A stretch of DNA of 64,000 bases from Acholoe squamosa (lineage: Eukaryota; Annelida; Polychaeta; Phyllodocida; Polynoidae). Positions 3,090 through 63,985 of this stretch are shown here, piece by piece (within the stretch, counting starts at the first letter, position 1; each line of letters starts with the position of its first letter). The notes under the pieces are model-generated. The model was given only the letters and a program-made list of their open reading frames with translations. It was not told the DNA's origin and did no database searches. The position numbers were made by a program, and so were the translations under genes. The DNA is taken from contig OX439035.1 in the NCBI GenBank assembly GCA_949317995.1, positions 80,849,959-80,913,958 on the forward strand, written 5' to 3'.

Positions 3090-3745
3090 CCTGCTTTTCA
3101 CCTGTGATGCCTTAAACAGTGCCTGCTTTTCATGTACTACTACCATCCACAATGCCATAAACAACGCTTTCTTTTCATGTACTAATACCATCTACAATAC
3201 CATAAACAAAACCTACTTTTCATGTACTACTACCATCTATGGCACCATAAACAAGCCTGCTTTTCATGTACTACTATCATCTACCATGCCATAAACAACG
3301 CCTTCTTTTCATGTACTACTACCATCTACGATACCATAAACAACACCTACTTTTCATGTACTACTACCATCTATGATGCTATAAGCAATGCCTACTTTTC
3401 ATGTACTACTACCATCTACAATGCCATAAACAACACCTATACTTTTCATGTACTACTACCATCTACGATGCCATAAGCAATGCCTACTTTTCATGCACTG
3501 CTACCATCTGCAATGCCATAAACAACACATACTTTTTATGTACTACTACCATCTACGATGCCACAACAACACCTACTTTTTATGTACTACTACCCTCTAT
3601 GATGCCATAAGCAATGCCTACCTTTCATGTACTACTACCATCTACGATGCCATAAACAACACCTGCTTTTCGTGTACTACTTCCAAGGCTTTATATTGCC
3701 ATATGGAACACCTACTTTTCATGTACTACTACTGTAGTATCTACT
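3090..3745. repeat. 45-bp minisatellite (main block)
   Basis: A unit of about 45 bp, recognisable by CTTTTCATGTACTACTACC and ATGCCATAAACAA, repeats roughly 14 times with point changes. Because 45 is a multiple of three, the array stays open in one or more frames and yields apparent peptides with a repeating YFSCTTTIYDAINN-like unit. I treat these as by-products: stops recur, frames overlap, and nothing like a splice context or start supports translation. Confidence 0.85.
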
Positions 3746-3892
3746 AAGATATACACCTGTACTGTTGATTTGATTATGGTGTGTCAATTTTCAAATTCAA
3801 ACATACATGTATTTCCTCCTTGAATAAACTGTTGGTATGTAAACAATGCAAATGGTGATTCGATGCTGAACCAACGTTGATGCGTCCACTGG

Positions 3893-4080
3893 GAGTGAGT
3901 GAGTGAGTAATAGATGTTTAACGCCATTTCGACAACTAAGGTCATATTCATGGCAAGAACTACATTACACAATTTGTAGAGGAATGTGTCAGTGCCCGCG
4001 CATATGTGCACCACACACATCCTGAGGGGATAGCAAAGAGAAGATACAGACCCTTTTAAGTGGGCTAGGGAAGCCCGCGT
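3893..4080. repeat. Dispersed GTGAGTGAGTGAG repeat, copy 1
   Basis: This interspersed unit of about 190 bp starts with GTGAGTGAGTAATAGATG and TTTAACGCCATTTCGACA. It continues through CAGTGCCCGC and GTGCACCACACACAT and ends near CCTTTTAAGTGGGCTAGG. A near-identical copy lies at 4960-5155 and an inverted one at 52893-53076, with partial copies at 34.75 and 35.35 kb. It interrupts the 45-bp minisatellite, so it inserted after the array formed. I see no clear pol III boxes, so its class is left open. Confidence 0.75.
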
Positions 4081-4084
4081 CCAC

Positions 4085-4690
4085 TGGGAAACAACTCCTA
4101 CTTTTCATGTACATAACCATAAATCAACACTAATGTTTTGTGCCCTCCTCCCATATATGATGCCAAAAACAAAACCTACTTTCACGCACTCCTCCGATAT
4201 ATGATGCCATAAACAATGCCGACTTTGCATGCACTACTAACATCTACAATTCCATAAACAAACCCCTCTTTCATGCACTACTCACCTAAATACGATGCCA
4301 TAAACAAACCTACTTCCATGCACTACTAAAATATACGATACCATACAAAAACCCTACTTTTCATGTACTACTACCATCTACAATGCCATAAACGATGCCT
4401 GTTTTCCATTTACTACTACCATCTACAATACCTTAAACAATGCCTACTTTTCATGTACTACTACCATCCACAATACCATAAACGATGCCTTTTTTCATGT
4501 ACGTCTATTCCATCCACAATGCCATAAACAATGCCTACTTTTCATGTACGTCTACCATCCACGATGCCATAAACAGTGCCTACTTTTTGTGAAGTACTGC
4601 CTATTTTTCATGTACTAATGCCATCTACGATGCCATAAAATCTGAGATACCATAAACTGTTCATGTACTACTACCAAGGCTTTATTATGC
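4085..4690. repeat. 45-bp minisatellite (degenerate block)
   Basis: This is the continuation of the array after the interspersed repeat. The same landmarks, TTCATGTACTACTACC and ATGCCATAAAC, recur, but spacing and sequence have drifted more than in the block to the left (for example TGCACTACT and TTCACGCACTCC variants). It ends near a fragment, CAAGGCTTTA followed by a PolyA-poor CATATRGAACACC word, that also ends the first block at about 3685-3715. Confidence 0.75.
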
Positions 4691-4959
4691 CATATAGAAC
4701 ACCTAGTCTTCATGTACTACATGTACTACAGTAGTATCTACTATCTACTAAGACATACACCTGTACAATTCATTTTTATGTACGTTGCTTACGTTCGATG
4801 ATGCGTTAGTTTAACTACGACTAGGATGTATTGCCTACACTAATTCTGCTACCATAGTAGATAACTTCTGTTCTATTCAACGGATTTGTAAAAGTCAAAA
4901 AGCTATGTGTAACTTAGACCCTCGACTGATATGCTACTGTAGGGAACTGGGGGGGGGGG

Positions 4960-9737: not shown

Positions 9738-11379
9738 TTACACCATTATTCCATGGTCGTTTGCAGAGACGCCATTTTGAGCTAGAGACGTTACTTCCGA
9801 TTGTGAACCGACTCCTGTTGAGGTACCATTGACTGGCGTTGTGGGAGAAGTGTTTGGTTTAGATGGAGAAATGCCCTTAGTGGGGGTCGTTGTTAGGGGA
9901 CACTTGCTTGGTGTGGTTGCATCTTTACTTGGTGAGGTTGGTAGTGGACTTGCATTAACCCCATTTATTGCAGGGCTCTTGGTGGGAGAGGTTGGGGTTG
10001 GCATTTTACCACAAGGTGAGGTTGGTGTTGACTGTTTAGTAGGAGAGGTTGATGTAGACTGTGTGGCAGGGGAGGTTGGTGTTAGCTGCTTGTTAGGTAA
10101 GGTTGTTATAGGCTGCTTGGTGGGTGTTCCAGCTACATACCCTGGAACATGCGATATAGGTTTCCTTATGTTCATCTCATCCTTTGAAGGGGTAACGGGT
10201 ATATAGGACGACTTGGGAGGTCGACCCCGCCTCTTGGGTGTTGCCGGGGAAGCAGGGTTTGGTTTAGGATGGAGGCGGGGCCGACCTGGACCACGCTTAG
10301 GTGTGTTGGGGTCTTTGAAGTGGAGCCGAGGCCGGCCGCGCTTCTTTTTGACTGGTGGTTCTTTTGTCCCTGCTGGTGTCCCTGACCCTGCCTGCCTCTC
10401 AGAGGGCGTATCTTCTGAATCTGACCGTGCTGGACGCTTAGGGGGCGTGGGAGATTGTAAGACAACCTGGAAGATGAAATGATTATTTGAGAGTGGTTCA
10501 TGGGCCTCCCTACCCCACGAAGACATGCTGCATGTTTTCCTACTACCTTGAAGCCTTACGTATAAGCAGCAGCTAACTAACCATTTCAAAGACATGCGCT
10601 ACAGTATGGTCTTTTTGAGCTTATGAGTGTGGCTTATAGCGAGATAGCGGATTGTCCAATGGGCTAAAGCTGGTTGCCAGCTGTTATCACTGATAACAGT
10701 TATCAGATGGGTACCACCTGCCCCCAGAGAGACCAGCATTAAAGAGTTAGGACTATTTCATTGGCTGGCAATTAATCCCACTAAGTCGGTATAGGCGGGG
10801 CTTTGACATTATAGAACAAACAGTAATAACTGGCAATTTCAAGCCCCAGGATTACAGCTCATAAACAAATACAGTGTGCGTGTACACTTACCCTTAACTT
10901 GAAGTCCCTTGGACTAAATGATTTCTGTGTTTGCTGCAAAAAGAAGAAAAAAGTCCAACGTTAATATCAAATATTCATAATGTGGTCCCAATCAGAATAA
11001 GTAAATAAACAATAAGCTGATAAAATCATTACCATGACGATAGAAGGTTCTATCTTTATCTATGTTCATAAACCCTAGCTCTAGAGTCTAGATGGTCTGA
11101 TATAATCCCCAACTAAATGCTTCTTATTGTATCATTTGATATCATACATCAGAGACTACGTCAAATAAGAGGAGAAAGAAATATCTGGCCATGCAAGATA
11201 GGTATTCCACCGCATCATATAAAGTGTGACCGACCCATGTCATTACAAAAAATATTTTGACAATCCGACAATATTTTATATAATAAAAGTATGACATCTG
11301 GCAGTCGTACTACACTCAACCAACGCAGTAGAATACCCACCTGTTTTCTGACCCACTGACGCTGAGACAACAGGTTTGA
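9738..11379 (-). CDS. Three-exon AT-hook and S/T/P-rich module (alternative 3' end of the neighbouring gene, or a separate gene)
   Basis: Three exons with good GT-AG borders, all in phase 0, read continuously: 11341-11379 (13 residues, ending QRQWVRKQ), 10892-10933 (14 residues, QTQKSFSPRDFKLR) and 9738-10466 (242 residues to a TAA stop). The last exon starts VVLQSPTPPKR and has three AT-hook cores in a row: KKKRGRPRLH, KRGPGRPRLHP and PKRRGRPPK. A tail of about 170 residues follows, full of TPTSPTK-like repeats with many S/T-P sites. AT-hooks bind the minor groove of AT-rich DNA, so a nuclear chromatin role is likely. The first exon has no start codon, so upstream exons are missing. Because every exon of the AT-hook gene at 14269-21616 is also phase 0, these exons could splice onto it in place of its terminal exon, giving about 542 residues. 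An independent promoter near 13.9 kb is the alternative. Confidence 0.75.
10632..10803. repeat. Dispersed repeat with GATAACTGTTATCAG core, copy 2 (inverted)
   Basis: This is the reverse-complement copy of the 5222-5412 unit. GAGATAGCGGATTGTCCAA, TGATAACAGTTATCAGATGG and GTACCACCTGCCCC are recognisable. It lies in the intron between the last two AT-hook module exons. Confidence 0.7.
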
Positions 11380-13847: not shown

Positions 13848-13937
13848 TTCTGTCGCTACTGGCAGTGGTATTGCTTTTAGTATTATGGCATAATTTTCAG
13901 GAGAACTCCTTTCAGGTGCCCTGGTACAGACAAGCAT
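13848..13937 (-). CDS. Candidate first exon, 30 residues, upstream of the AT-hook module
   Basis: An ATG at 13937 opens a frame of exactly 30 codons (containing RAPERSSPENYAIILKAIPL) that ends at a strong splice donor, GAA|GTAAGT, again in phase 0. It would join in frame to the 13-residue exon at 11341-11379 and so could be the start of an independent transcript for the 9738-11379 module. There is no recognised domain. Alternatively it is an internal exon with a weak acceptor, or chance. Transcript data would decide. Confidence 0.3.
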
Positions 13938-14268
13938 TGCCTTTATCTTTAAAATCCAATGCAATGGAGAGATTTAGGTAGAAGTATACATTCTCTGAAT
14001 GAGGATGAGGCATGTGTATGGACAGTCCCAACACTACACACCATATCTCCGCTCACATACGACACCAATGGGGCCCTTTTTCTCCTACTCCAGTTGGATT
14101 TTTTCTTTGATAGAAAAAACAACTATCCTGTACCACAAGAAAATTTAAAAATAAAATGATCGAAACAGAAATTCATATTATCGTCTCTTCTAAATGCCGT
14201 TTTGCTGGAATTACTCAATGGTTCATATGCCAGGCTGGTCTCCATGACTATCACCACTTGTGTAGTTG

Positions 14269-17200
14269 TCAAAGTGACTTTGGTAGTAGTAGCGCCTGAC
14301 AGTCGCCCGGGTCTTGTGGCTGAACCACCTCAACATGTCCATTTTCAGACGTCATTTTTTGCTTCTTTATTTGAGCTGGGTCCAAACCATTAAAGTCCTG
14401 TATTGTGCCGTCTGCGTTCATGTAGGCAAAACGCCGCTGTGTCTTCATATCTTCATTGTCGTTATTGTAAGTGCGATACTGAAACAGAACAGATTATGAC
14501 AATTCAGTATGCAATTCCCTTAAGGATTAGCAGGTAATGTTTGTTTATTCTGAGTAGAATACATGCACATTTTTACATGATGTGTCTGTGGTTTGTATAT
14601 GAAATTATGAAAGCACTTTTCATCTCCAAGTGAGGTGTCTTTTAATGTAAATGATGATGTAATTCTTACCCTGGTAATTGATGATGTATCTACTCCCAAT
14701 TCCATCAGTTGCCTTTTCAGTGCTGCATTTTCCTCCTCCTGAAAAGGAAATAGACAGGGATAACTTAATGCATATCGATGCGATCATAGCTTAATATATT
14801 TAGTGACTTCACCCCATAAAAACTAATGTAATGGAAGCTAAATTTGGTGATTCATCATATAAGAGTGTGTTTACCATTAAACGAAGTTCACTCTCCAAGT
14901 CCTTAACTCTTTTTTCAAGCCCCTCATTCGTCTGCTTGATAGCCGAATACTGAAATAGAGAAATGAAAAGCTTTAGTCACAAAAGCCATATCTTCATATT
15001 ATATATGCAGAACACATTAATGTTAGCCGAAACTTGTCACATGGTTCGTTGTCTGTTAAATGAAATAAAACTCAGGCATTTCTGAAAGTAGTAAGGTATG
15101 CATGCATGTGTGTTGGTTTCTACATCTTTCATGCGCCTTTATATTTGGATACCAATCTATCTAACTATTGTCAGTACATTGATATGACTCTTTGACAATC
15201 CCAGTAATCTCATAGAACAAAGCTAGCTGAAAGGTATATGAATATGAAGGGGGGGGGAAGACCGAAATTGCAAAAAAGAAAAAAAAAATTGTCGAGAGTG
15301 GGGGATTAGCTTTATTGTTTCTTTTACCCTTTTTGGGTGGGGGCGGGAGCATTTCCTAGGGTACAGATATGACAATGATATTCAGTTCAAATGATTATTG
15401 TAAGAGCAGACTAATCATCTGATAGAAGATCCGATACCAAACAAAGCACCTAGATGCATGCATCATAATTTCTAATACAAAGTCTACTTATCAAGATATC
15501 AATCATAATGAAAAGAACCACTACAGGGTCTACTATAAGTTCCAATTTCAACAAAGGTTAGGACTCACCTCTGGAAAGGCTTGGAAACTTGGGAAGACTT
15601 GGGACAAAACTGAACGTAAATGGGCGCGACGTTTTTTTTCAAACTGGTCCAAGTTAAAGAGATTACTGGGATCGCAGCGAGGTGGCGCATTTATTTTGAT
15701 ACGAATGCTTATATAAGATTTAATGCTATGAATGCTGACGACTTTTAATTTGTGATTACATACATTACTACTGGTAGTATTGGCATGTATGCCACAAGAA
15801 AGTGGACGACATACAAGGTGAACTTCAGTAATAATTTCACTCCCGATTTTTTGTTTACGTATGACAATTAATGGATAAATGACCATCTAGATCTAGCCAT
15901 GTGAAGTGTGCCTTACATGCAGTCGATTTGATTACACTTAAGTTATTTAAGGTGTTTATAGATTGTTTAATGTTATCTATAGCTAATACAAGCTTATAAA
16001 GGGGTCCCATGGACCTCGGCACAGACATTTTAACAGTGTATTTCCGATGGATGGACTTTTGGCATGCATGCCAAAAGTAGAAGATCATGTATATATCTGA
16101 CAATTTCTTCAAATATGAAGTAGTATGATAGTATGAGGTAGTATGATCGATGTGAACATCTTGGTTCATTTTTGAGAAGATTGATTTTTGGGCCCCAACC
16201 ATCGGACTATGCCACTTTAAATATTCCAGTCACGCCTCTGCTCGTTGATCTTAATTGACTTTTCATTAGCGAGGACAGTCATCTATTCCACTCCCTATTT
16301 CTATGGTCTATACATCATTCAACTCCTTCATTTTCTACTGATTATACACTGTTTATACTCCTGGGAAGAAATGTGTATCAAATGTCACCTACCTTGGGGT
16401 TACTGGCAGGCCGTCCTCGTGGTCTTTTTTCTCCTGGTTCCTATTGAGTAAGAATAGACGTGTTCAATATTATCATATTGGCACCATTCTGCTGGGACTG
16501 TCAATGTTCGAAAGTACTTTATCTTATAATTAAATCTACACAATGGGGAAAAACATATGACGTATCATTAAAACTCCTTCCTATCTCTTCAAATGACATA
16601 GACAAGGCTTTAAATTGAGTTTCACGACAGGTACCGTAATCTCCCGCGTATAAGACGCGTCTCTTATACGCGGATCAGATCGTTCATGGGTCTTGTACGC
16701 GGGAGCAAGGCTGCCTTGAGTTGGGGGTGCGCCTTGTACGCGGGGTATCCCGAACTACCAATCCAAAGTCATGTCCACAATGTCATGTATTTTCTTTAAC
16801 CAAAGAAAAGGTGTAGTCTATACCATGGTGCTCTATATACCCTTAAACTGCTGAATGAAGCATACTATTCTGCTCACCATAAAAGTGTATGGAAATGTAT
16901 GTGCACCCCACTCACTGAGAGCTTTATTAATTATATTATTGACCTTTTAACCAAGAGAATCCATGCAGCATTATAATCAATCCTCCTGGCTGCCATAGCA
17001 CTGCTGCCACCTGGTGTGTTATTCTAGAAATCAGAACCTACCACCAGGTGGCAGCAGTGCTATGGCAGCCAGGAGGATTGATTATCATGACCAGTTGGGG
17101 TATTGTTAGTTGCATACAATATTTGAAATGCCCCTTTGGGTTGGGTCCTTTGAGTGGACCATGCTCCTTGAGTTAGGGGTGCGCCTTATACGCGGGTTTT

Positions 17201-19937
17201 TCAAATATTAGACTCAGAAGCAGCAGATGCGCCTTCTACGTGGATCTGCCTTCCCTAAGTTGGGGGTGTGCCTTCTACGCGGGCTGCGCCTTCTACGCGA
17301 GAGATTATGAGAGAGTACAAATTCAATTGGAAATTGGTCTTATTGATTTTTTTGAAAAATAGTGTAATAGTTCCAGTTAATGGTAGACTGACCCTAACCA
17401 ACTTACCTTTGGGGGATGTATCCGTGGCCGGCCACGGGGTCTCTTGGGGAGGTTTTCCTGGAAGTAGAAAGCAACATGTTAAATCCTTGTAAGAGAAGTG
17501 ACGGAGAGGATGTTAGACCCCTCGAATTAGACATCACAATCGAGTTATGGTTCTAATCCAAAGCCAAAGGCGTTGGTAAGGCATATATAATGAACACGTA
17601 CACAAAACATGCCATTGTCTAAGTAACGGGGGTAATGGGATGGGAGTTGCAATCAGTGATTATTGGCGGATGCATTCCTGTAAATGATACGTACTAGGGT
17701 TCTAGCAAATGTTCCAAAACCCATGATAAAATTGAGGATTTCCCATATATACCCTACCTTGCGTATAAGGCGCATTCTATATGGCGCAGTAAGGCTCAGA
17801 TTCATGTATAAGCTGTGGCGTATACGCGAGGTACTATGCAGAGATGCCACTCACTGGCCGACAAAAACCAGGAAAACTGGACTTTGGAAACATTTTCCCA
17901 GGAATTTAACACAATTTGATACAGAAATCTTGGAATCAAAACCAGGAATTCCTGGTTAACCAGGAAAAGTGGCATCTCTATACTATGTTAGGTTAATGTC
18001 AGCAATTAAAATTTGGCAATTGCATGCATTACTACAGTCTCTGAAATTCCTAGTATACAGCTAGTATAGTCTCACTAAAGTTCCAGCTCGTCTGTATACT
18101 CTAAAAGCAAAGCAGTATGACACATCAAGCATTAGGCAGTGCCAAAGTACAACTTGCAACTACCTAGGTAAATGGATGCTAAGATTTGAATACAAACGAC
18201 AGATGTACATATGCCAAATGTAACTGTAAGAGGTCAGGCGTGCAAGCTAACCTTGGGTGGATGAATACGTGGTCTGCCTGGTGACCTCCGCTCCTGCACG
18301 GACAGGGGTAAACAAAGTGGGGTCGTCTTAAAAGCAGTTCATTGTACTCATGAGGAGTTTATCATTCGCAACATGTATGCAGTTGTGCCATACTACCGGT
18401 AGTAAAAGGCAGTGTTGGTGAAGGTGATAGTGGAGGGAAGGGGTATGGTATTGAATACCATACTCCCGCATATACCATTGCTGATACTGTGGGATATGAC
18501 TTCGCTGGTACCCTGCAAGTATTGAGGGCATATACCCACAGGCCATGTATGATGATATTTTTTCACAGATCCTGGGGAATAATTGAACCCCACTCAGTAA
18601 GAGATTGAGATCTCCAATCATAGTTTATATTCCAAACATCTGTATAGGAGACAGGTAAATCATTGGGGTGATGGGGTGCCCCTTGTGAGTAAGGGTGAAA
18701 ATTGGGATGATTGACTGGTAACTTCTTAAGCATGGCCTGCCTGTATCATGTACCCAATATACAGACAGGTCGCCAGCCAAGGATATGAGCTGTTACAGCC
18801 AATAAAGCTCTGGAACTGGTTTTTGAAAATTAACAACCATTTTGTTCCCTCGCCTTGACCTAAGAGTAAGTGCATTGAGACTGAGTGCATGTGAATAGTG
18901 TCTAAGTGACAAAGGGAACAATCATAACGGACGTTTTGGCACAGGAGCTTTATCCTTCTACAAAAGTACATTGTAGTAACAAGCCATGGTAGGAAGGACG
19001 TCCATTGCTACGAGAATAGAACTGCTGTATGGTATATTGACACGGGGTAGGATACTCTTTAAAAAAAAATCATCAAATCCATGGATGTCATTTGTGACTG
19101 TTCCCTGACATATCGTGTTCATGCAAATTTATTTTACCCTATGCTTTAAGTGTCGATGCGAGCACGTGCGTACATCAAGAACATGCCAATTTAAGCAAAG
19201 TGCCTTGTGCTAAGGCCCTATGTATGTGTAGGGCTATTTCGGTATGTTAGCTATCTATAGTCTGTGTTCTATCGTAATGTATGGCTAATATGCATATAAG
19301 TTTATACTCACCCCATTAGGGGTAGTTTTTGGTGGTCGTCCTCTTGGTCGGCCACCGGACCCTGGTGGGCGTCCTGGCCCTCTTTTCACAAATAGCTAGA
19401 TCGAAAAAGAAATTGTCACATGTGAATGTTTATGTTTATACATTTTGAAGGGGAGACAATTGCTTTGAGTTAATATCAATTCTCATATTTCTTCAATATT
19501 TTGATTCTTCTATCATAATTGCCTTTCTGTGCGTTAATCACAATTCATTTGGTAAAGATAATATTATCCTCATAGCGTACTCCTTCCACTTGTGCCTCTT
19601 TTAGAGTACAGCAGGCAATTAAACCAGGGAAACCATTATCACACACCCTTTTTACTTCAATATGAGATGTCCTCTTACTTGTGAGGGTGTTGCGGGGGAC
19701 ATTGTTGTCGCCTGTTGTTGCTGGGGTAAGATGAACTTCATGACAATCCTAGATGGGCTGGTAGTGGGTGGTGGACTCTGGGGTTGTAGACGTGGTGAGG
19801 TGGGGGAGGATGCTGTTAGAACTGGTGAGGCTTTGTGTGGGGAAATCGTCAGAGGCTGTGGTGATATTAAGATGCTGCCACCTGGTGATTTAATCTCGCT
19901 ACTGTCATCAACATCCTCATCATTAATTTCAGCGATG

Positions 19938-19975
<38 letters not shown>

Positions 19976-21616
19976 ATGGCTGACATTGTCCTCATCCTCG
20001 TCCTCATACTCCACCTAGTGGGACGCAATGAAAGTACTGATTTTATGTGCACAAAGAATGTCCTTATATACTACACCTGTGACACTACATGTATAACAAA
20101 ACACACATAACTGACCTATACAGATGACACCACCCTAGAATTGGTGGCTAAAAGCCTAACCACAGGTGACATTGTGAAAGCCAAAATTTCTCAGAATTAC
20201 ATGAACTTTATAATAGTAGCCGTCTTTGGAACTTGCCTCTATACTACTAATTGATGTAAACAGTCAATAATTGATGTTGTGAACTATGAGTGCTGTTTGT
20301 TATATATTGTAATATTGCTGAACATGTTAACCGTGGATTTACCAAAATGTGAAAAGGAAAAGCATGAGTGAATAAAAGCTGATGACTCTTTTACGAAAAA
20401 AAAGACTAGCTTATTTGAATGGCGGGGGGGGGGGGGGTAGATTTATGAATGTTCACATATCACAATGTATTTCTAGTATGCTATACTAATGGAATATAGC
20501 ATAAATATGGCAGCACAAGGGTGGTATATTGACGAATATTGCACGAGGCCGTTAGGCCGAGTGCAATATCGTCAATATACCACCCGTGTGCTGGCATATT
20601 TATGCCATATTGCATTTATACCACCTTTTCCTCCATTTTGTATTAATTTCTTACCTGATATCCACAGAATATAGCCACGAGAAAACATTTTGTAAAAGCA
20701 AGCGATACGGCCCGGGTCACCGCTCTGCGCGAAGCCATTGTTTTTGTTCCTTGCCGGGAGAGGTACCGCTGTGTTCACACTCACTTTTCGTATGGAATCC
20801 AACCATGACAAGTCTTCAAATTAATACATACACATCCTTAGATAGTCTAGATGATCCCTCCATATGTATTATGTCCAATATATTCAAAATAAAGGAGAAT
20901 CCATTGATTTTCCAAAATGGTCCGAAATTTTCGCCATGTTCCTCGTACGGCGAGCGGATGACCTATATCTACATCCGGGCCACTGACACACTTTCGCCGA
21001 ACAAGGAGGCGGGTGGGAATGGCCGGACCGCGACTCGCTTACGATGGAAAAATCATTGGATTCTTATTTATATCGAAGAAAATGGAGAAAATTAGCACGC
21101 ATTCCTCGTCTATGGATCGAAAACTTCTTGGAACTTTGATATTATAACATGTCATGGTTGGATTCCATACGAAAAGTGAGTGCAAACATAGGACAAGGAC
21201 CCCAGGTTAGAAGTTATTTACTATCGTATTGGGTTTCAACACCGTTCAGTGTGGCGCTATGGCTAAGGTCTTCGCCTACCTCCACTGCGGCCGGGGTTCA
21301 ATTCTCCTACGAGTTTGGACGATTTTTCACTTTGAAACAATGGCGAGACTGAATTTGTATGTCTGCCACACATTTCCCAAAATATTCTAAGTCCAACTTG
21401 ACCTCGAAAAAGTATATCCAAAAATCCCAAAAATGCACATGTGCGTATATGCTCTCATAATGCACTGGTAGCAGAGGGCATAACAGTAAGGGAGGTGGCA
21501 GAATAGTGGTATAATATATAATATTAAAGGTGTACGTTATGTGTTACAGCCTGTAAACATTTATGTTTGGAACTTACCGGGTTCAACCCTGTGTTATCCA
21601 TAGTAGTGCACATCAT
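14269..21616 (-). CDS. Multi-AT-hook protein with MXD-like basic/helix-zipper C-terminus, 10 coding exons, 342 residues
   Basis: Coding exons on the minus strand: 21578-21616 (start MMCTTM), 19679-20014, 19312-19395, 18252-18293, 17407-17457, 16393-16440, 15569-15643, 14875-14949, 14670-14738 and 14269-14478 (TGA stop). All joints are GT-AG and phase 0. Residues 14-23 are acidic (VEYEDEDEDN) and 27-39 are poly-Ser, followed by a Pro/Ser/Thr stretch. Residues 126-200 hold five AT-hook cores (GPGRPPG, RPRGRPP, SPGRPRIHP, RPRGRPRIHP, RPRGRPAS), which bind AT-rich minor grooves. Residues 201-225 begin FEKKRRAHLRSVL, like the basic/helix-1 region of MAD/MXD proteins (EKNRRAHLR). Residues 226-273 form a coiled coil ending ALKRQLMELG, like the MXD zipper end. 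A canonical helix 2 is not obvious, so an exon may be missing between 15569 and 14949. The first exon is non-coding. It is likely a nuclear DNA-binding protein; the family is unassigned. Confidence 0.85.
15644..16392. other. Intron of the AT-hook gene
   Basis: This stretch separates the last AT-hook exon from the basic-region exon. Its minus-strand open frame continues upstream of the called acceptor (reading NLFNLDQ before FEKKRR), and an alternative acceptor slightly upstream would break the phase-0 pattern. I therefore place the exon edge at 15643. Nothing else is recognised. Confidence 0.5.
16634..17307. mobile_element. Inverted-repeat element of the CCGTAATCTCCCGCGTATAAG family, copy 1
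   Basis: The left end CCGTAATCTCCCGCGTATAAG is matched inversely at the right by CTTCTACGCGAGAGATTA. Inside, several sub-repeats of the type TTGGGGGTGCGCCTTATACGC occur. The first 340 bp or so are nearly identical to 33562-33900. The better preserved relative at 60625-60915 has TA on both sides, so a Tc1/mariner-like TA target is likely. It lies in an intron of the minus-strand AT-hook gene and contains the 44-nt hairpin at 16973-17085. Confidence 0.75.
16973..17085. repeat. Perfect 44-nt inverted repeat (hairpin, 25-nt loop)
   Basis: The arm 16973-17016 is the exact reverse complement of 17042-17085. The core words are CTGGCTGCCATAGCACTGCT and its mirror AGCAGTGCTATGGCAGCCAG. With a 25-nt spacer this would fold into a long unbroken stem on either strand. 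It sits in the interior of the CCGTAATCTCCCGCG element and in an intron of the AT-hook gene, so it would be transcribed. Confidence 0.9.
17839..17980. mobile_element. hAT-like MITE, copy 1
   Basis: Ends are CAGAGATGCCAC and GTGGCATCTCTA, flanked by TACTATG on both sides (832-838 and 981-987 within the 17 kb block). Short CAGRG-type ends with a 7-8 bp duplication fit the hAT superfamily. An inverted relative with shared interior (CCAGGAATTCCTGGTT) is at 60929-61071. No coding capacity. Confidence 0.8.
18300..19311. other. Intron of the AT-hook gene
   Basis: Unique-looking AT-rich sequence lies between two AT-hook exons. Open frames on the minus strand here overlap each other and show no splice-flanked exon in phase with the gene. 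No repeat was recognised. Confidence 0.45.
20491..20616. mobile_element. Long inverted-repeat MITE
   Basis: The arms run from about 20493 to 20552 and from about 20560 to 20616. GGGTGGTATATTGACGA on the left is answered by GTCAATATACCACCCG on the right, and ATAAATATGGCAGCACA by GTGCTGGCATATTTAT. The loop is only a few bases around GGCCGTTAGGCC, so this is almost a pure foldback. It lies in intron DNA of the minus-strand gene. Confidence 0.75.
20778..21182. repeat. 33-bp inverted duplication with exon-like content
   Basis: A 33-bp sequence at 21150-21182 recurs as its exact reverse complement at 20778-20810. On the plus copy an ATG at 21149 reads MSWLDSIRK and runs into GTGAGT, the look of a first exon with a splice donor. 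On the minus copy the start codon is TTG. The 340 bp between them are moderately GC-rich with several CpG. Whether this is a bona fide first exon or the ends of an element is unresolved. Confidence 0.6.
21248..21318 (+). repeat. Possible tRNA-derived (SINE-like) head
   Basis: CTATGGCTAAGGTCTTCGCC resembles a pol III A box region, and GGGGTTCAATTCTCC resembles a B box about 45 bp on. I cannot draw a full cloverleaf, so I do not call a tRNA gene. It may be the head of a SINE. Confidence 0.25.
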
Positions 21617-21639
21617 TTCACCGTCGGCTTCAACCTGAA

Positions 21640-36700: not shown

Positions 36701-39700
36701 TGTTATGATATTGATCCACAAAGCCGCACTTGCAAAGAAGTCAGGCCCTAACTATGGAAAAGGCTATGAGCCGCATCACATCTAGAGAATTTCACGGGGC
36801 CTTACTTACTCTTGTAACCTATCTATAAGCTGTGCCCTTAGTTCATGAAGGCACTATATTCTGCAGTAGACCTCTGATCCAAGAATTGCGACATACAAGA
36901 AGGGTTTTATGGCACATCAGATTTAAGATGTTTACCACTTGATAAATGATTACAATGTCAATCCTACAGGACGAGCCGATCCTCAATGCGCACTTGGGCA
37001 TTTATTAAAAGCGCTCTTCAAGAATGATACCTTCATGAATAGGGTAAGTCAAATAAGCTAAGTTTTGATTAATACAGAGCTGTTTCATAATCTCATAATC
37101 GTGAGTTATGGAGAGAAAAAGAATAAATTGACCCTATTTTTGATAATCAAATATAAATACCAATTTTTGTTATATGAAGTTAAAGCATAATAAACGGTAA
37201 ATTTGCCTCTTGCTCAAATTTCATGACCAGCTAGACAAGGAATTAACCAGTGCTTTGTCTTGCATACGTTAGGTGCCGGTATTATGGTATAAACTCCTGC
37301 TTTTTTAAGTATTTTATTGGGTCTATAAAAAAAACATTTATACAATAAAATTGAATAAATGAGTTCATACCTAGCTTGGGCACGTTGCCTTACCTCCGCG
37401 AGGCTTTTGAGCTGTAGACTGATTTAAAGTTCAAGATAGGGCCTTAGACTTCAAAAGTCCATGTTTACAGTAGCTATTCTATATGGTTAAATAGACGCAA
37501 ATAAGGTACACTATGACGTACGTATGGCCATATAATCTGCAGGGCATCCATAAATTGCATCAAACATGGAAGAGTACCGTATGAGGTGTTCATTATTTAT
37601 CACTAATTAGGATGATTTATCTCTCATTATTTCTAGTTGGTTAGTGATTACTTATTGAGCAATCGTGACCAGACTGAACTTCAGACGGTCTCGTGTAGGC
37701 TTCTCTTCGATATCATGCCAGGCTTGGAAACTTCTGTCGTCTTCCAAGAAAATGTAAGTGAAGATTGATTGGCAATCTCTATCAAAACATTAGCTATTTC
37801 ACTTGCCCTTGCACATTTGTTTCTGTGGCATTACCGGGTAGGTGCATCATTATTGCCAGAGGAGAGAATAATGATTGAAAAATTAAGGACAGAAAAAAAA
37901 AAATCTTTTGTGGCTAAAGTACCTAAAATATAATAAACATGTATGTGTGCTGATAAAATACTGTTTCTTGTTAACAGGAGGGTCTCGTTAGGCGCCTCAT
38001 TCATTGGGCGGAGCACTCAGAGAACCCCTTGCGTTCTTACGCCACGGGCCTGTTGGCAGGAGCTATGGAGATTCAAGACATAGCCGCTAACTTTAAGGAC
38101 AACAACACAGTGCTGGTTAGTACATTGATGTTAAGAATGTTGATACTGTCAGTAGTGTTAGGGAGGAAATTAGCTCGATTAAGATTAACATGCTTGATGA
38201 AAAAAAGATTTTCAGTGGAAATCACAAAAGGAGCTGTTGTGACCTGGAGAGATGTAACTTTTACATTCTGAAAGCATTGCAATGCTAACGAAACAAGCTA
38301 ACTTGTGTCTTCAAAATCTTTTAAATTATAAATATTTTGGCTTTCCAGGTCCCGATGATGCTGCAGCGACTTCACACCCTGAAGAAACAGGACATTGAAG
38401 AAAAGACTGCTATGTTTCAAAGGCCCTTTGCAAACATTGGCAAGACACACTCTAAATCCAATTTAGACAGCCAGCCTGAAGGAAGCACACAGGGTACAAA
38501 CAGTAAGAGACGAAGAGAGGCATCTACCGCCAGCACCTCACCTTCCTCTTCGCCACCGGCTAAAAAACTAGCAAAAATCCCAGAAAATAGTACCACAGTT
38601 TTGGATGAGACTACGCACCAGCCCTTGCCAAAAACACCACACAAGGAGGTGCAGGATGAAGATGCACAAAAGAAAGACACTCCAGCGGAGGCCACTCCAT
38701 TAAAAAAATTCCCTACTCCCCCCGGCTTACAGATGGCACACAAGATACACAAACCAAATCCACTAGCATTGCGGAATCCGAAAATGCTGTCTCCCAGGAA
38801 GGAGACATCAGGTAAGGCAAGAGTGTAGGACAGATATTGCATGCATTTACATAATCAAACTGATAGAAATATTCCACAATACACTATGAATATATGACAG
38901 ACCGGATGTACGAGGACTTCCACATTTCTTAAGGAGCACAAAGTGAAATTGGAAGTTTTTTATGCACAATATGGATTTATCAAAAGTTTTCTCTTCATGA
39001 TATACAAAAACATTTCTGAATTTACCGAATACCATAATATGCAACTGTAGACTACACTGAGTGTAGATACCACTATCATAGTATTACGTTACCATAATAT
39101 GCAACTGTAGACTACACTGAGTGTAGATACCACTATCATAGTATCTGTGTTGCTATAGCTAATGCCACACCAAAAGAATAAGTTGGTCTACAGATTTTGG
39201 TTTTGAAGAAATGGTGCGAGCGAGAGTTTTTTTTTGTTTTTTTTTAGATATTTTTGTCATCCAATGGATTCCTTGCTGGAAAAATGAGGCACAAGCAAAT
39301 TTTTTATTTTAAATTTCTTTTTGCCAAACATCATGAAGAGAAAACTTGCAGAAAATGAGGCGAGTGAAATCCGTAGACAAGATTTTTTTAAAGAAAAGAA
39401 ATTTGCATTTATGAAAATATGGAGAGGGCGATCTGCAGATCAACATATTTTTGGTGTGGCCTAATACCTTATTTCTCTTCAGTAGCTGATTGTAGCAACA
39501 GTAGCTGGGCAGAGATTGAACCATACATCATCGGTTCATACAACATGTTCCCACTAACACGCAGCATGGAGCAGCGGCTTATCTTTCAATACCTCACACC
39601 TATGGGCGAGTACCAGGAGGTCAGTGTGTGTGGTATACATTATATGATATGAAATTGAATTGATAACCTTTAAAATTTCCTAGATCCCCCTGATAACAAA

Positions 39701-42700
39701 AGTAACGGCTTCTTTTAAAACAAACTAGAGTGTCACAATTTGAAAAGTGGTAAAATGATATGACAGTAAGCTTTGATGTTGTGGCATCTGCTAACCAGCT
39801 AACTGCCATATTTTATTCATGCCAAAGGTCTCGCATTGTAGAAAAAAATCATTTATATATATATTTCAGCTGGTAAGCCATGTCTTTGAGCACAACGCAA
39901 TGGACTTGATATTCTATTACATAAACCTGCGTGAGAACAGTGATGTGAGACTTGCATTCGACGCACTCAAAGTGAGTAGAATCCGATTAGTCTATTTCAT
40001 ATGGTATTTATCACAAAAATAAGTTGAAAACTTGAAATGTAACTGAAAAAGCATTTTATGTAAACCAGTGTATCCGACATAAATGACTCATATTGCCATC
40101 ATTTAGGAAATTGATTGCATAAATATCTGTTCATTGCCAGTTGGCCATAGCCAACTGGCCATTTCTAGCCCACACAGAACACTTCACTTTCTGAGACATT
40201 TAGAATTGCATAGGTCATCATAGCCATTCATTCTTAAACATCAGTCAACAAGTATACTGCGGTCGTAATTTATTTCACGCTGTACATATTCTCGCGCATT
40301 TCGCGGAAATAAAAAGTCCGCGAATTTATGTACTCAGTGAAAATGTATATCTATGAAGTAGTGATATGAGTTGGTTGGGGGAGGGAGGGGGGTTAGTTTG
40401 TTTGGGACCCTTCAAATGATTTAGCCTAGGCTAGGTACCTGCTCCCCCCACCCCACAGACACACACACTGCCCAAATGTATGCAGCATTCTTATAGGTGT
40501 GAAAACTATAAGACAACATCAGCAAGCATTAATTGGGATGCTCTCTAAGTTTGTCTAGGAATAGATGGCCTACATGTAACTACACATGTACCATAATTAA
40601 CATCAAAAGCACAGGGAACATGTAACCAGACTGAATTTAAACAGATTATAAAAATTTGTGAATTTAAATACACATGAATTTGTCTTTTTTGGTATTCCCG
40701 CAAAATTTTATACCAGTGAAAATATCTACGATCACAGTAAATATTAAACCTAGCTTGTTAATATGAATCATTCCTATGAGGTATGACATTTAGCCATAGC
40801 TATAGTATGCAATATTAGAACATTGCTTGCATGTTATCATTCTTACAGCAACTGCCGTCAAGGTAGGAGCTAGGCTCCATTGCCCTCCATTCTATTATCA
40901 TTTTAGTATTAGGGATAGGGACATCATGAATACATTAGGAATGTGTCTTGAATACATTAGGAATGTATCATGAATACATTAGGGATGCGTTATGAATACC
41001 TTAGCAATGCATCATGAATACCTTAGCAATGCATCATGAATACCTTAGCAACACATCATGAATACTTTAGCAATGCATTATGAATACCTAAGCAACCAAT
41101 CATGAATGCCTTAGCAGCGCATCATGAATACCTTAACAACACGTCACGAATACCTTAGCAGCACATCATGAAAATATTAGCAACCAATCATGAATACCTT
41201 AGCAACACATAATGAATGCCTAAGCATCACAGAATACCATTAAGACCTTAGCAATACATCATGAATACCTTCGCAACACATCATGAATACCTTAGCAATG
41301 CATCACAAATACCTTAGCAACACATCATGATTACCTTAGCAACACATGAATACTATGAATACCTTAGCAACGCACCAGGTATCCCTTAGCAATGCATCAT
41401 GAATACCTTAGCAACACACCACAAATACCTTAGCAATGCATCACAAATAACTTAGCAACGCATCACTAACACCTTAGCAACACATCAGGAATACCTTAGC
41501 AACACATCAGGAATACCTTAGCAACACATAATAAATACCTTAGCAACACATCATGATTACCTTAGCAACGCACCATGAATACCTTAGCAATGCACCATGA
41601 ATACCTTAGCAATGCATCATGACCAGCTTAGCAACGCATCACGAACACCTAAGCAACACATCAGGAATACCTTAGCAAAACATAATTTATACGGCACATG
41701 GCTATTGTATTATTGACCAATGGGAGGCATCCCTGGCATAAACTGCGGAGTCGGGGGCTGAAGGTGTTAGTCATAGTGGAGTCGGGGTCTAATGGCAGCC
41801 CCCAGCTGATAATGGCTATGTGAGCTATACCTTAGCAACGCATCATGAGTACCTTAGCAATGCACCAGGAATACCTTAGCAACGCATCACGAACACCTTA
41901 GCAACACATCAGGAATACCTTAGCGACACATAATGAATACCTTAAGAAACATCCCCCTGTGGAGTGGGGACCTTCATGCATGGAGGAGCAGAATAACTTC
42001 CACGGAGGAATTCTCCTTCCATTCTACCAGTGGGCATACCAGATTCGTAAAAGGCGACAAACTTGGGGTTTCTTGTGGCTTGGGGTGAGCGTGTGGGCAG
42101 CTGGTGTCCATATGCGCGGGCCTACATGCTTGCCTTTTGCCATGGGATTCCCCCTCAGTGAACCACGTCTGAGTGATCAAAGGCCGTGGTTTGTCTGGCC
42201 CTGTCCATAGGACCAGGCAAATAAAAGAACACTTGCTATCCTTCGAAAAGAGTAGGGGAATGAAGCCCCGGTAGCGGTTTTCCCCCTCAACCTTCCTCAT
42301 AGATGCGGTCATTCATCTCATAGATTCTGTCATTCATAGATTCGGTCACTGCTGTGTCGGGCAAGCAGCATATATAAATACCTTTCTAGCTGTTTGGACA
42401 AGCAGCTTTTAAAAACCTGTCCAAAAAGAAAAGAAAGGACTTGATGTCTGCGAACCACAGAAATGTCTAACTTTTAAGTACTATTAGTGGACGTAAAATC
42501 AACCAAACCAAACCAAAACCTTAACAACACATCATGATTACCTTAGCAATGCACCAGGAATACCTTAGCAACGCATCACGAACACCTGAGCAACGCATCA
42601 CGAATACCTTAGAAACCCATCACTAATACCTTAGCAATGCATCACAAATACATGTAATACATGAATAGATTGCGAACACATGAATAGATTGTGAACACAT

Positions 42701-51700: not shown

Positions 51701-54700
51701 TACCATGTTGATTCCATCTCGCTGGTTCTGTACACAGTTTTGTACACAAGTCACAGTAGTCTTTTACGAACAAATTTCCTTTCTGTTATCTCATTTTCCC
51801 CTAATGTCAGTGCACTTTTTGTCCATTATCACAGCGCCATAGGCGCTGGTATGACAGTTAAAGACAACTTTGCTTTTCTTTTTGCTTTAGACCACACCGT
51901 TGTCCAGACCCAATGAATCGTAACCGGGCCCCAACAAATTTCACCTCTCGTATATTTCAACGAATGGTAAGTATTTGCATCTCAAATATATAACTTTTGA
52001 AATACAAAAGTGGTTGATCCAAATAAGCACATTCTTATGCAGAGATGTGTATTCTTAATGGCTGTAGCTGATACATATAGTGAGACCACAGTAGGGGCCA
52101 GAACAAACGAAAGAAGTTTTAACATAAAATAGATAAATAACATTTTCCATAATGTGAGGGGATGTAGTACTAGCGTTTGTGGTTTTCGCCACTTGGCACT
52201 GACCTGTTTACTGTGAATATACCATTTACAGTAACACATAAGGAGTTAAACTATGATAATGCAATTCCTGGCCCAATTCCTTTGCTGTAGACTTAATCTA
52301 TTCTTACCATTGTCTTCAAACTTTACTTTCAGTACACACCTCGGTACGGTGGTCCTGACGGCCTGAAATTAGATAGGAAATACATCTACAACAAGTAAGT
52401 AAAATCATCAACCTCCTTTTTCTCCACACAATTGCAGTTCTGTGTTATAATGTATTTATTCATTGACAGTTTGTTCTTTGCTTGTAGAGCTATACATGAA
52501 ACCTGAGATGTGTTTGCAATTACAGATTCCGACCAATCCGCTCATACCGTGACACAGAAGAAGAAGGATGCTTCTCCTGCTGTGCTTTTTCGGTAAGTAG
52601 ATCACAATTTTGCAAGTTGTTACATGTATGTGTACACTTTTATATCTTTAGATTTATAGGTAAGACGCTTTACTTACTTGGGTTTAATAGTCTCCATTAT
52701 AAATTTGTCAAGTTTTGTTCCTTATACAGGCGTGTGAGCAGTACCTCTTGCTAGGGACCTATTCTGGTGAATTATCGTTCTACAACATCCAAACAGCAGA
52801 GGTAAGTCTTAAGCAATAGTTATCATTTGTTTTGTGTGTATTGCTTAGAACAATTATGAATCTACCGGTAGCCTATGCTTGTGTACACTTGGGCTTTCCT
52901 AGCTCACTTAAAAGGGTAATGTCTCCTCTTTCCTATCCCCGCGGATGTTTGTGATGCACATATGTACGGGCACTGACACATTCCTCTGTGAAATTGTGTA
53001 ATGTAGTTGTCACCATGAATATGACCTCATCTGTCTAAATGGCGTTAAACATCCATTACTCACTCGCTTGTGTATACTAACATTTTCTTTCTTTTTGTTT
53101 TAAATTGCAGGAGACAAAAAGTTACTCATGCCACAACTCTCCGTTAACACACTGTCAACCATCAAAGGTAAGTGTGTTTTCCATCACTGACAAAACCAAA
53201 GCTTATACAGGTGGGAAACACCGGAGTTAACAGAATAAATGTCGATGCTTTTCACTATTTCTATTTGGGAAAATAAATTATATTTGCTTTAGCTCGAACA
53301 TGTGCCTGTATTCTGAATAACGCGTAGCAGCATCTCACCTTTCAGGGCAGTATCATTCTGTCATTGATTTCTTTTTTTTTTCAGGATGGAAGCTTGGTAT
53401 TAACCTCATCTTCATGGGGAAGGCCATTGTCAGCCATGTGGAGTGTTGGAGAGAGAGTTGAAGTAAAGTAAGTTGGTGTTGAGACCTTTCTTGAACTACA
53501 ATTGAGCCAATTAGGGTGTGCCTGTTCTATTTATATATATATCTATATATCTCTCATCTCACGTAACCAAGCCACCTTCAACACGATGGCCATTTCCCGG
53601 CCATATTTTGAGGATTTGCCTGGAAAAAAGTCAAGATAAAAGGAAAAAATATACCTTTTGATATCAAACTCACTGGTTCTAATTGGACTATTTAAAAAAT
53701 TCTTTCGCTGTTGAAACAAAAAGTCCTTTAAAAATGTTCCTCTTTCTGCCCAAATTGGGCCCAAAATAACCCCTTACAACAGGCCCAAGTGGGTCCACTC
53801 CTATGGTCCAAAAAGAAAACGCCCTTTCCTGCTCGTTTGGACATGGTTTTCACATATCCACAAGTGCCCCCCCCCCACGGGGGCATGGTCCTGAGCTACC
53901 CCCTCCCGTACTGCTTGGTCATGGCTCATCAGTCCTAGGTACCTCCCTTATACAATGCCATAACGATAATAGCCCCACAGGTGCGTCTGGGCCGTCTGCA
54001 CAGCTAGGTCACGGCCTAGTTGCTAGTACCTATTCTTAACCCTTTAAAGGCTGCTAATGCTTTCGGGCCCTTGAAGGAATACAGACACAGATATAATGAA
54101 TGACATGGTTATATCTATTAACAGGCACAACTTTGACTATGACAACTACGTAGAATTTAGCAAATGGAGCCAAGACAGAATCATAGGAACAAAGGATGAA
54201 AAGGCCCACGTAAGTAACTACAAAAGTAAAATTGAAACATTTGTTTTAGAAATCACCAAATGAATGGAATACAATTGGAAAAAACCCGCCTCCATGGTAC
54301 TTAACGTATTCGTAAGATGTTCTCAATTAAAAAAGAGCACCCACATTTTATCATGAACTTAATAAATTTGCATTATAATTACTGCACTTTTGTCCAATTC
54401 ATGAACTTTTTTATTGCTAGGTTTATGATGTGGCAACAGGCCGGCTCATCCTCACATTGTACGACCCAGACAAGGCCAACAACTACTCACGTAACCAAGC
54501 CACCTTCAACACGATGGACGAACTGGTGCTAAACGATGGCGTCTTGTGGGACGTCAACAGTGGAAAGGCGCTGCACAAGTTTGACAAGTTCAACCCAAAC
54601 ATCAGTGGTGTCTTCCACCCCATGGACCAAGAAATCATTATTAACTCTGAAGTCGTATCCTTGAACTAATGCTTTGTAGCAGTGTGTAGTTTTATCCCTG

Positions 54701-57700
54701 ACCTTGTTTGTGTGAGCTTTATTCTTATTCGCACTGAAGGGGGTGAGGTATAGACAAGTACCGTAGTACTGTGCCTAGAAGAAGCCATGTGTATTAATGA
54801 ATCAGACCACAGGTTTACCTTATAGGATTGGCCTGAGTTTGGCCTGTACCTTATATGTGATGTCATACCCGGCGGCATGTTTAAGTGCAGGGATTTGAAT
54901 AAGTACCGGTCCAAGGCGTATGGGGGTCATGAAATTTAACATAACCACTAAAACAAATCTTGAAGGCGTATGGTCTGAGTTGGAAGTGCACCTTATACAC
55001 AAGCTGTGCCATATACGGTACTCGGGGTACGGGTACTACGGTAATGTATATGGTATTTGGATTGTGTATATAGGCAGTACAGGGATGTAAGTTTTCAGAA
55101 TTTTGTCTGATTTCAGAATTTTTGAACCAGATTTTTCTAGTAGATTTAACCAAATTACCAAAGTTTTGATAATGTTTTACACTAAATGCAGGATTTCTAA
55201 ATGTGTCTTTAGAATTTTTCAAGCAGTCTGACGTACATCCCTGGCAGTAATATGAATCAACAAGGCTAAAGATGTACCGTAGTAGGTCTGCATCTTCAAC
55301 ATTGTCAAACATTAAAACTAAAAACCTTCTTTATACATGTATTCCTTTCTCGCTATGAATAGTTTACACACCTTAACTGACAAACAGTGGGACATGAGAA
55401 CCTTCAGACTACTTCACACCGTACCTGCCTTAGATCAGTGCCAAATACGATTCAACCACAGTGGAGACATCATCTATGGTGAATATTTTATCCCAATCAT
55501 GCCTAGAATTAAATCTGTCAACTCCTTTCTAGCATGCTTTTTGTGTATTTTTAACAAAGGCTGCGTTCATGGTTACCCAGTACATGATCTCCCAATTCTA
55601 AATTCAACCCTTTCATCCTTAGATTTCCGTTACTCTAACCGATTTGCATGCAAATCCTACTTGAAGGGGCACTCTAGCCATATGATTAATATGAATTTGT
55701 TCGATATAAACGTGACAAAAATATAAGATGTTCAATGTACGTACTACAATAACAATCTAACCGTGAACCCCAAACCATGAGTATTTTCATCCTGGAGCCT
55801 CTCTTCTTGTGATCCCCAGCTATCCACCAAGACGATGATGATAACCTTGATGACGACCAGATGAAGAGTCCTTTCGGATCTTCATTCAGAACGTTTGATT
55901 CAACAGACTACAGCAACATAGGTAAATGTGAAATTGAATTTGATAAGAAATAAGGGTCATATAGCTCTGTATGTATACCGATTGTAATGTAGGGACTCAC
56001 AGTTTTGTCGCCTTAGCATTAAAGGGGGACTAGCATGGCTAATTTCAATATGGGTACCTACCAATAGAACGTGCACCAGGGGCGGATCCAGAAGGGGTGG
56101 TCTAGGGGGGGGGCACAGCCAAGATAATTTGCTCTAGGGGGGGGGGCAAAAGCGGGTTTTCGGGCTATATTTTCTATAGTTAAAGAGTCAAAGCCTGGCC
56201 CAAGTTCAGGGGGTCTAAGGGGGGCACGTGCCCCCTAGCCCCCCCCCCCTGGATCCGCCCCTGTGCACAAATCCGCGGGACCCAGCGAAATTTTTGCGAC
56301 GATCTGATTGGTCAATCGGTGGTCACGTGACTTTTTATTGCGGGCGTGCATTTGCCATGCTAGCCCAACTTTAATTTAAAATGTTGCCTTAGCATTAATT
56401 TAAAAATTTACACCTTGATCAGAATGAGAGCTTCTTTTGTGAATATCACATAAAATATAACTGTTAATATGATGACAGCTATATCGAGAAAAAAAACACC
56501 CAATGTACCTACTCTAATACTCTGTGTTTAAATGGAAACAGTACCCTACATTCATGACATAGTATTTTGATAGCCTTTGTATCAAAAAAAATGAATATGG
56601 CATAGTTATCAAAATATGTATCACTGTAGAGCAGAGCAGCAGGTTTATGTCATGTATCTGATGACGTCACGATTGGCCTGTGGCTTAAACACGAGGATGA
56701 AGCCCAATGAACCTTATATAAACAGCCAAAGTCAGGAATGCGCCCAAGAGGCGAGGATATTCTACGTTATTCCTTATATTGGTATGCAGGGTATTAGGGG
56801 ACATAAGATTAATACCGGTAGCAAACTGGAACATATCAATCCCCAGCTTCACCCAATACCAACTTAGCGGGATTATCAGCCAAATCACTGCAGAACTCTC
56901 GGTTGCAGATAGTGCCCATCTGATAACTGTTATCCAGCTGGTAACCAGCTTCAGCAATGTCCGCAGTCATTAGACAATCCGCTACCTTGATATATTTAAG
57001 GGCACATCTTAAACGTTGGGTGCGCCTTATATGCAGGGTATAATGGTAAAATAGATAAATCAATGTAATTCTTTTTTTTCTTTTCAGGCACATTTGATGT
57101 GAAGAAAAACATCTTTGACCTGTGTACAGATTCCTCAGATTGCTACCTTGCTGTGATTGAGGTGAGACCCAACATTATAATTGTTCAAATATTGGCCAAA
57201 ATCGCTTACTGTATCCACCTATTTGGAGCAGTTGCACTTACTCAGATCTGCAGTTACGCTCTAAAGTACAGAAACGCATGAACACTTACTCAGATCTGCA
57301 GTTACGCTCTAAAGTACAGAAACGCATGAACACTTACTCAGATCTGCAGTTACGCTCTAAAGTACAGAAATGCATGAACACTTACTCAGATTTGCAGTTA
57401 CGCTCTAGAGTACAGAAACGCATGAACACTTACTCAGATCTGCAGTTACGCTCTAAAGTACAGAAACGCATGAACACTTACTCAGATCTGCAGTTACGCT
57501 CTAAAGTACAGAAACGCATGAACAATTGAAATTTGATACTTGAATACATTGTCCACCCTGTGTTGCCTGTTCTAAGAGAGGTAGTTTCGGTATCATGTAC
57601 TGTATATTGACTTTGACACTGGCTGTGCTCTTGGCATCTACGCGATATACTTACAGATTTGTAAAAGACTTTCCTATGAATTTCGATTTACTATACTAAT

Positions 57701-63473: not shown

Positions 63474-63985
63474 TACCGTAATCTCCTGCGTAGAAGGCGC
63501 AGCTCGCATAGAAGGCGCCCCCCAACTCACAGGGGGCTATTTTCGCGTAGAAGGCGCCCCCTCCCCACCCCCCCACCCACCTCTATGAGTTCAAGCTGTC
63601 ATCGGCACATGGTGGGCCTTATCCCCGGCGAGCGCATCAACACCGACCGGTCTGCCACGCTGCTGGCTTTATGAGTTCAAGCTGTCATCAGTACACGGGT
63701 CTGCGTAATGCCCGCCGAGCGCCTGAACACGGACCGGGCTGCCGCGCTGCTAGCTCTATACGTTCAAGCTGTCATCGGCGCATGGTGGGCCTTATCCCCG
63801 GCGAGCGCATCGACACCGACCGGTCTGCCACACTGCTGGCTTTATGAGTTCAAGCTGTCATCAGTACACGGTCAGCGTAATGCCCGCCAAGCGCCTGAAC
63901 ACGGACCGGGCTGCCGCGCTGCTAGCTCTATGAGTTCAAGCTGTCATCGGCGCATGGTGGGCCTTATTTTGGGGTGTTTTCCCAA
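63474..63985. repeat. 86/87-bp tandem array with alternating monomers inside a CCGTAATCTCC element
   Basis: The left part, CCGTAATCTCCTGCGTAGAAG followed by AGAAGGCGC repeats, is an end of the CGCGTATAAGGCGC family. From about 63585 a unit with TTCAAGCTGTCATCGG recurs at steps of 86, 87, 86 and 86 bp. Odd and even units differ consistently (GCGCATGGTGGGCCTTATCC against GTACACG and GCGTAATGCCCGCC), so the real repeat is a dimer of about 172 bp. GC content is much higher than the surroundings. The window ends just beyond it. Confidence 0.85.

Follow-up and report, generated by a model that had tools for sequence, protein, structure and literature searches.

The window analysed here, a stretch of 64,000 nucleotides from the polynoid annelid Acholoe squamosa (contig OX439035.1), carries on its minus strand a gene predicted to encode a protein with several AT-hooks and a leucine zipper pattern. 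It lies head to head with DCAF1 (VPRBP) on the plus strand (30750–55726, both ends placed by eye), two ORFs of which (37975–38271 and 54421–54669) resemble human DCAF1, with E-values of 1.2e-13 and 2.5e-32. The ten exons that an earlier, sequence-only reading had proposed for the AT-hook gene (21616–14269) were recovered with AG/GT borders and with phase 0 at all nine joints; the translation, 342 residues when counted from the first ATG (21616), contains the acidic, poly-Ser N-terminus, five AT-hooks with a GRP core located by motif, and both of the strings that the reading had quoted, FEKKRRAHLRSVL and ALKRQLMELG.

Exon 1 (21578–21634; acceptor 5.8, donor GTAAGT 7.0, phase 0) is coding from the ATG at 21616; a good acceptor sits 18 nt before this ATG, which makes an upstream 5′ UTR exon probable. 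Exon 2 (19679–20014; acceptor 2.8, donor 3.3, phase 0) encodes an acidic region, a 13-residue poly-Ser tract and a Ser/Pro-rich stretch. The AT-hooks follow on four exons recognised by splice borders and hook motif: exon 3 (19312–19395) with hooks 1 and 2 (GPGRPPG and RPRGRPPK), exon 4 (18252–18293) with hook 3 (SPGRPRIHPPK), exon 5 (17407–17457), a near-duplicate of exon 4, with hook 4 (KRPRGRPRIHPPK), and exon 6 (16393–16440) with hook 5 (EPGEKRPRGRPASNPK). Of the 27 bases encoding GRPRIHPPK, 6 are changed between exons 4 and 5, all of them synonymously (simulated chance 1.1e-4); the two exons thus look constrained at the protein level. Exon 7 (15569–15643; donor 7.8, phase 0) encodes a basic, amphipathic segment, the MXD-like string FEKKRRAHLRSVLSQVFPSFQAFPE, which was aligned to MAD (see below). 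The two halves of the zipper, assigned with a heptad test, are encoded by exon 8 (14875–14949; acceptor 4.3, donor 1.1) and exon 9 (14670–14738; acceptor 6.9, donor 4.8), the latter comprising EEENAALKRQLMELG with an Asn at an ‘a’ position. Exon 10, in its putative spliced form (14329–14478), encodes a 50-residue linker with GHVE as its last residues.

An unbiased scan for open phase-0 exons of 24–400 nt on both strands of the 64-kb window, using generic splice weights, returned eight minus-strand candidates with scores of at least 8, seven of them exons of the ten-exon model; the best minus-strand candidate outside the AT-hook gene scored 7.3. The low-scoring exons of the model are exon 2 (6.2) and exon 8 (5.4), and the weak acceptors are those of exons 7 (0.7) and 10 (1.8). 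On the plus strand 11 candidates reached 8 or more (best 13.3), some of them inside DCAF1; several, one antisense to exon 12 described below, are probably spurious, and since these reach 11.9, a splice score of 8 is in itself no proof of an exon. An exon suspected by the sequence-only reading to be missing between 14949 and 15569 was not recovered, the lone phase-0 candidate at lax thresholds being a 12-nt stretch encoding TTNH; a helix-2 exon hidden in this intron (15568–14950) was rejected on the same scan.

The introns of the AT-hook gene hold long inverted repeats (16969–17089, 20488–20616 and 20769–21191; arms of 48–56 nt, 84–98% complementary), which resemble small foldback elements. Elsewhere in the window, a 48-bp tandem repeat (57235–57524; six copies, 97% match) has an open reading frame running across the repeats with a 16-residue unit, and further tandem arrays lie at 3106–4587 (45-bp units), 40921–41944 (22-bp) and 63581–63967 (86-bp). 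In the genome searched (1.48 Gb, 63 contigs), no second copy of the AT-hook gene was found at E≤0.001, three query pieces matching the window alone (at 4, 4 and 1 places, among the best candidates scored); of three stretches in viral contigs that fit a pattern, none proved to be a relative. The mitochondrial contig carries its genes on one strand in the order nad4-...-nad1-nad3-nad2-cox1-cox2-cox3-nad6-cob-atp6-nad5 (cox2 and nad4L were called by eye, nad2 via a shared antiporter family and nad6 from a match under the Pfam cut-off), which we take to be the annelid ground pattern and which points to an annelid; short TATG-rich repeats fill some 450 bp between nad4 and nad1 (4400–4860 of that contig), outside the usual place of the annelid control region.

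The 3′ end of the AT-hook gene

The sequence-only reading had let exon 10 run through to a TGA (14478–14269), so that the tail VVQPQDPGDCQALLLPKSL (14269–14328) formed the C-terminus of the 342-residue product. This ending now looks doubtful: neither AATAAA nor ATTAAA occurs between the stop at 14269 and 11770, and two further exons with a poly(A) signal follow, for which reasons the tail is probably intron read-through, or else an alternative end. Variant poly(A) signals occur downstream of 14269 from GATAAA at 13947 on. The single positive-scoring GT donor of exon 10 is at 14328 (GAG/GTGGTT; score 1.5, phase 0).

Exon 11 (QTQKSFSPRDFKLR; 10892–10933, minus strand) is the eighth of the high-scoring minus-strand candidates (rank 2, score 13.6), with an acceptor of 7.3, a donor of 6.3 and phase 0. 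Exon 12 (9738–10466, minus strand; acceptor 4.6, phase 0) encodes 242 residues up to a TAA stop, with AATAAA at 9373. It contributes three further AT-hooks (6–8), two of which stand in the context GRPRLH..K, recalling GRPRIHPPK of exons 4 and 5, in a part composed of 46% S/T/P and holding 34 K+R vs 11 D+E; its 11 S/T-P-x-K/R sites were equalled in none of 5,000 shuffles. The AT-hook gene thus probably continues through exons 11 and 12 to a product of about 579 aa with eight hooks. We infer the joint between exons 10 and 11 from the sequence, the chief reservation being its weak donor (1.5); alternatively, exon 10 may be skipped and exon 9 joined to exon 11.

The stop in frame at 14269, together with that weak donor, would also fit two adjacent genes, the first a zipper gene with five hooks that stops at 14269, the second a gene of its own with three hooks in exons 11 and 12. 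The 286-aa open frame at 10598–9738 does offer a Met in frame ahead of exon 12, and a candidate initial exon (MLVCTRAPERSSPENYAIILKAIPLPVATE) with a donor of 4.0 lies at 13937–13848; however, none of the phase-0 candidates for an initial exon from 14268 to 10934 has a donor above 4.3, exon 11, strongly bordered at either end, holds no start codon, and the AATAAA and ATTAAA signals that would close a first gene are absent from 14269–11770. One strand, phase 0 at every joint and a hook context, GRPR(I/L)H, common to both parts also argue against a division, and two genes are considered improbable.

AT-hooks, leucine zipper and proposed function

Within residues 236–264 of the product, the ‘d’ positions are occupied by L, L, M, L and L, and the ‘a’ positions between them by V, L, N and L. 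By a simple score of our own, the heptad pattern of the enclosing 73-residue segment (201–273) was matched by none of 20,000 shuffles, and the pattern, as read from the sequence, is that of a parallel leucine zipper. At E≤10 the Pfam families nearest to the segment are TSC22, the MIP1 zipper and bZIP_2, the others being mostly coiled coils and all of them below cut-off, and its 18 PDB sequence matches at E≤10 (best 0.21) are mostly coiled coils, including one TFE3 zipper and no MAD.

Counted by motif, the AT-hooks number five with a GRP core, or eight with exon 12; no Pfam AT_hook match rises above the cut-off, exon 12 reaching 12.9 bits vs the 17.4 demanded and exons 3–6 being unlisted. Pfam returned no family at E≤0.01 for the 579-aa model, and none for exon 10 or for the hook block of exons 3–6. 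Two results were set aside as chance: PUS7L_N for exon 7 (Pfam E 0.024), and five PDB sequences at E≤10 for exon 10 plus the read-through tail, the best at 0.031 and most of them DARPins (designed ankyrins) by name. The proposal of the sequence-only reading that AT-hooks are linked to a helical segment able to dimerise finds support in the sequence, with five hooks, probably eight, and a strong zipper pattern.

On balance we favour a chromatin protein that, with its many AT-hooks, belongs functionally to the HMGA/D1 type and would pair through a central parallel leucine zipper to bridge AT-rich DNA. The zipper would join two chains into a dimer with up to sixteen AT-hooks, able to make several contacts with AT-rich DNA through its minor groove and so to bridge DNA segments, with the basic exon 7 adding a non-specific DNA contact. 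The S/T-P-x-K/R motifs are CDK-like sites, and mitotic phosphorylation of the tail rich in them might loosen the dimer from DNA. As every joint is in phase 0, AT-hook exons could be skipped or duplicated in frame. In the known multi-AT-hook proteins, bundling of DNA is attributed to the hooks, and a central dimerising zipper would make such a protein a natural DNA cross-linker. DNA bridging in chromocentres has been proposed for D1 and HMGA1 in the account given in PMC5957525; Xenopus XHMG-AT-hook1, with eight hooks, is described in PMC3723657 as not binding AT-rich probes that HMGA binds, which implies that many AT-hooks give no guarantee of HMGA-like binding.

Zippers can also heterodimerise, and the protein might instead be a scaffold in which the zipper binds another partner, such as a co-repressor in the manner of PHF21A-like proteins, with the AT-hooks merely placing it on chromatin. 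PHF21A, as described in PMC6805429, joins two leucine zippers to an AT-hook, which lends this arrangement a precedent; however, no PHD finger or other effector domain was detected by Pfam, and eight hooks would seem excessive for a placement signal, so that a scaffold is thought unlikely, if still worth serious consideration, next to the DNA-bridging dimer.

Resemblance to MXD proteins

A more specific identity had been claimed for the segment, that of an MXD-like bHLH-zipper with a MAX-network dimerisation surface, and this finds no support in profile searches, in which the sequence-only reading had itself named the lack of an HLH signal as a refutation. Pfam lists no HLH at E≤10, either for the full protein or for parts of it (most matches above E 0.1 are lost to the filters of HMMER), and a genome search with PF00010 scored 104 candidates, 63 of them at E≤0.001 and including partial exons at 30–31 bits, with none in the window. 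Likewise, a MAD query at E≤10 reported four genomic places of five scored, none in the window. Two same-strand matches of this query on contig C9 (E 1.4e-8 and, for SLEDKERKSK..., E 0.108) are probably one genuine MXD gene, reaching 28.3 bits against Pfam HLH when the pieces are joined; about 31 kb separate its bHLH exon from its zipper exon.

The likeness that prompted the claim is nonetheless measurable. Against a bHLH-zipper profile the segment scores 13.7–14.2 bits, where the best of 200 shuffles reach 10.0–10.5 and the held-out MXD of the same genome 71.8; the segment thus beats its shuffles, yet falls far below the range of members. A profile combining HLH and bHLH-zipper proteins gives 9.2 bits vs 5.3 for shuffles, and a profile built from eight HLHs of the same genome gives −0.1 bits for the window gene, with just 3.4 for the genome’s own MXD, a weak control. 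Local alignment of the segment to MAD (1nlw) reaches 53, where shuffles average 26.4; none of 2,000 whole shuffles and one of 2,000 block shuffles did as well, and the alignment is carried mainly by EKKRRAHLRSVLSQV. Exon 7 by itself scores 43 (0 of 5,000 shuffles) and exons 8 and 9 by themselves 36 (p 0.024). The segment aligns weakly to MAX (42, p_all 0.011), MYC (34, 0.17) and the genome’s own MXD (41, 0.014). The likeness to MAD is real but short, consisting in sequence terms of about twelve residues and a strong leucine zipper, and because MXD was picked among all known families, the twelve-residue part needs discounting.

A strongly derived bHLH-zipper would account for these scores if exon 7 were a basic region with a shortened helix 1 and exons 8 and 9 a degenerate helix 2 with the zipper, MAX-network pairing being retained and tethered by AT-hooks. 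By eye, helix 1 has its hydrophobic residues, and the Glu and Arg-Arg of the MAD basic pattern His-Asn-x-x-Glu-x-x-Arg-Arg are in place, whereas His-Asn is absent across the exon 6/7 joint. The distance from RR to LKRQL, however, is 52 residues vs 61 in MAD, and the helix-2 core positions are mostly polar, with Asn or Gln where hydrophobics are needed (both by eye); no phase-0 exon able to supply helix 2 lies in the intron between exons 7 and 8. Introns are also placed differently, before FEKK, after FPE and after RLM in the window gene, and in the codon just before RAHLR and at FIK/SLED in the genome’s own MXD (by eye). Together with the failure of the profile and MAD searches to reach the window, these features make a derived bHLH-zipper very improbable, and the segment is better described by what the sequence-only reading had offered as its alternative, a ‘degenerate or non-bHLH coiled coil’. 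It would be a long shot indeed to see here an undescribed annelid, or perhaps wider, family of degenerate MAX-network bHLH-zippers that lost the HLH, kept the zipper and gained eight modular AT-hooks, forming a chromatin bridge whose choice of dimer still followed MAX-network rules. The case shows that a twelve-residue likeness combined with a zipper can mimic a bHLH family.

Comparison with known systems

HMGA1, HMGA2 and Drosophila D1 share with the window gene several AT-hooks and a basic, disordered character, and HMGA hooks lie on small separate exons, a layout like that of exons 3–6. HMGA proteins have three hooks in about 100 residues and an acidic C-terminal tail; the window gene differs in its length (342 or 579 aa), its internal leucine zipper, the N-terminal position of its acidic part, and its basic, Ser/Thr/Pro-rich tail. 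With MXD/MAD proteins, which carry an N-terminal Sin3-interaction helix, it has in common the string RRAHLR, the LKRQL end of the zipper and the basic residues preceding the zipper, and it departs from them in the absence of an HLH by profile, in a region nine residues shorter and in introns lying elsewhere.

The combination of an AT-hook with a bHLH is as such not new, since an AT-hook is noted in NEUROD1 in the account given by a review (PMC8431614); among the open-access PubMed Central papers listed by the searches, none names a protein of the present architecture in its title or abstract opening. PHF21A (BHC80), in the portrayal of PMC6805429, resembles the window gene in uniting an AT-hook and leucine zippers in one protein, and differs in having one hook and a PHD finger, a domain that Pfam did not find in the 579-aa model at E≤0.01. 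Compared by its description in PMC3723657, in the available text of which the words ‘coiled’ and ‘zipper’ are absent, XHMG-AT-hook1 is a protein of 327 aa, and shares with the window gene eight AT-hooks, the lack of an acidic C-terminal tail and the internal duplication of AT-hook regions.
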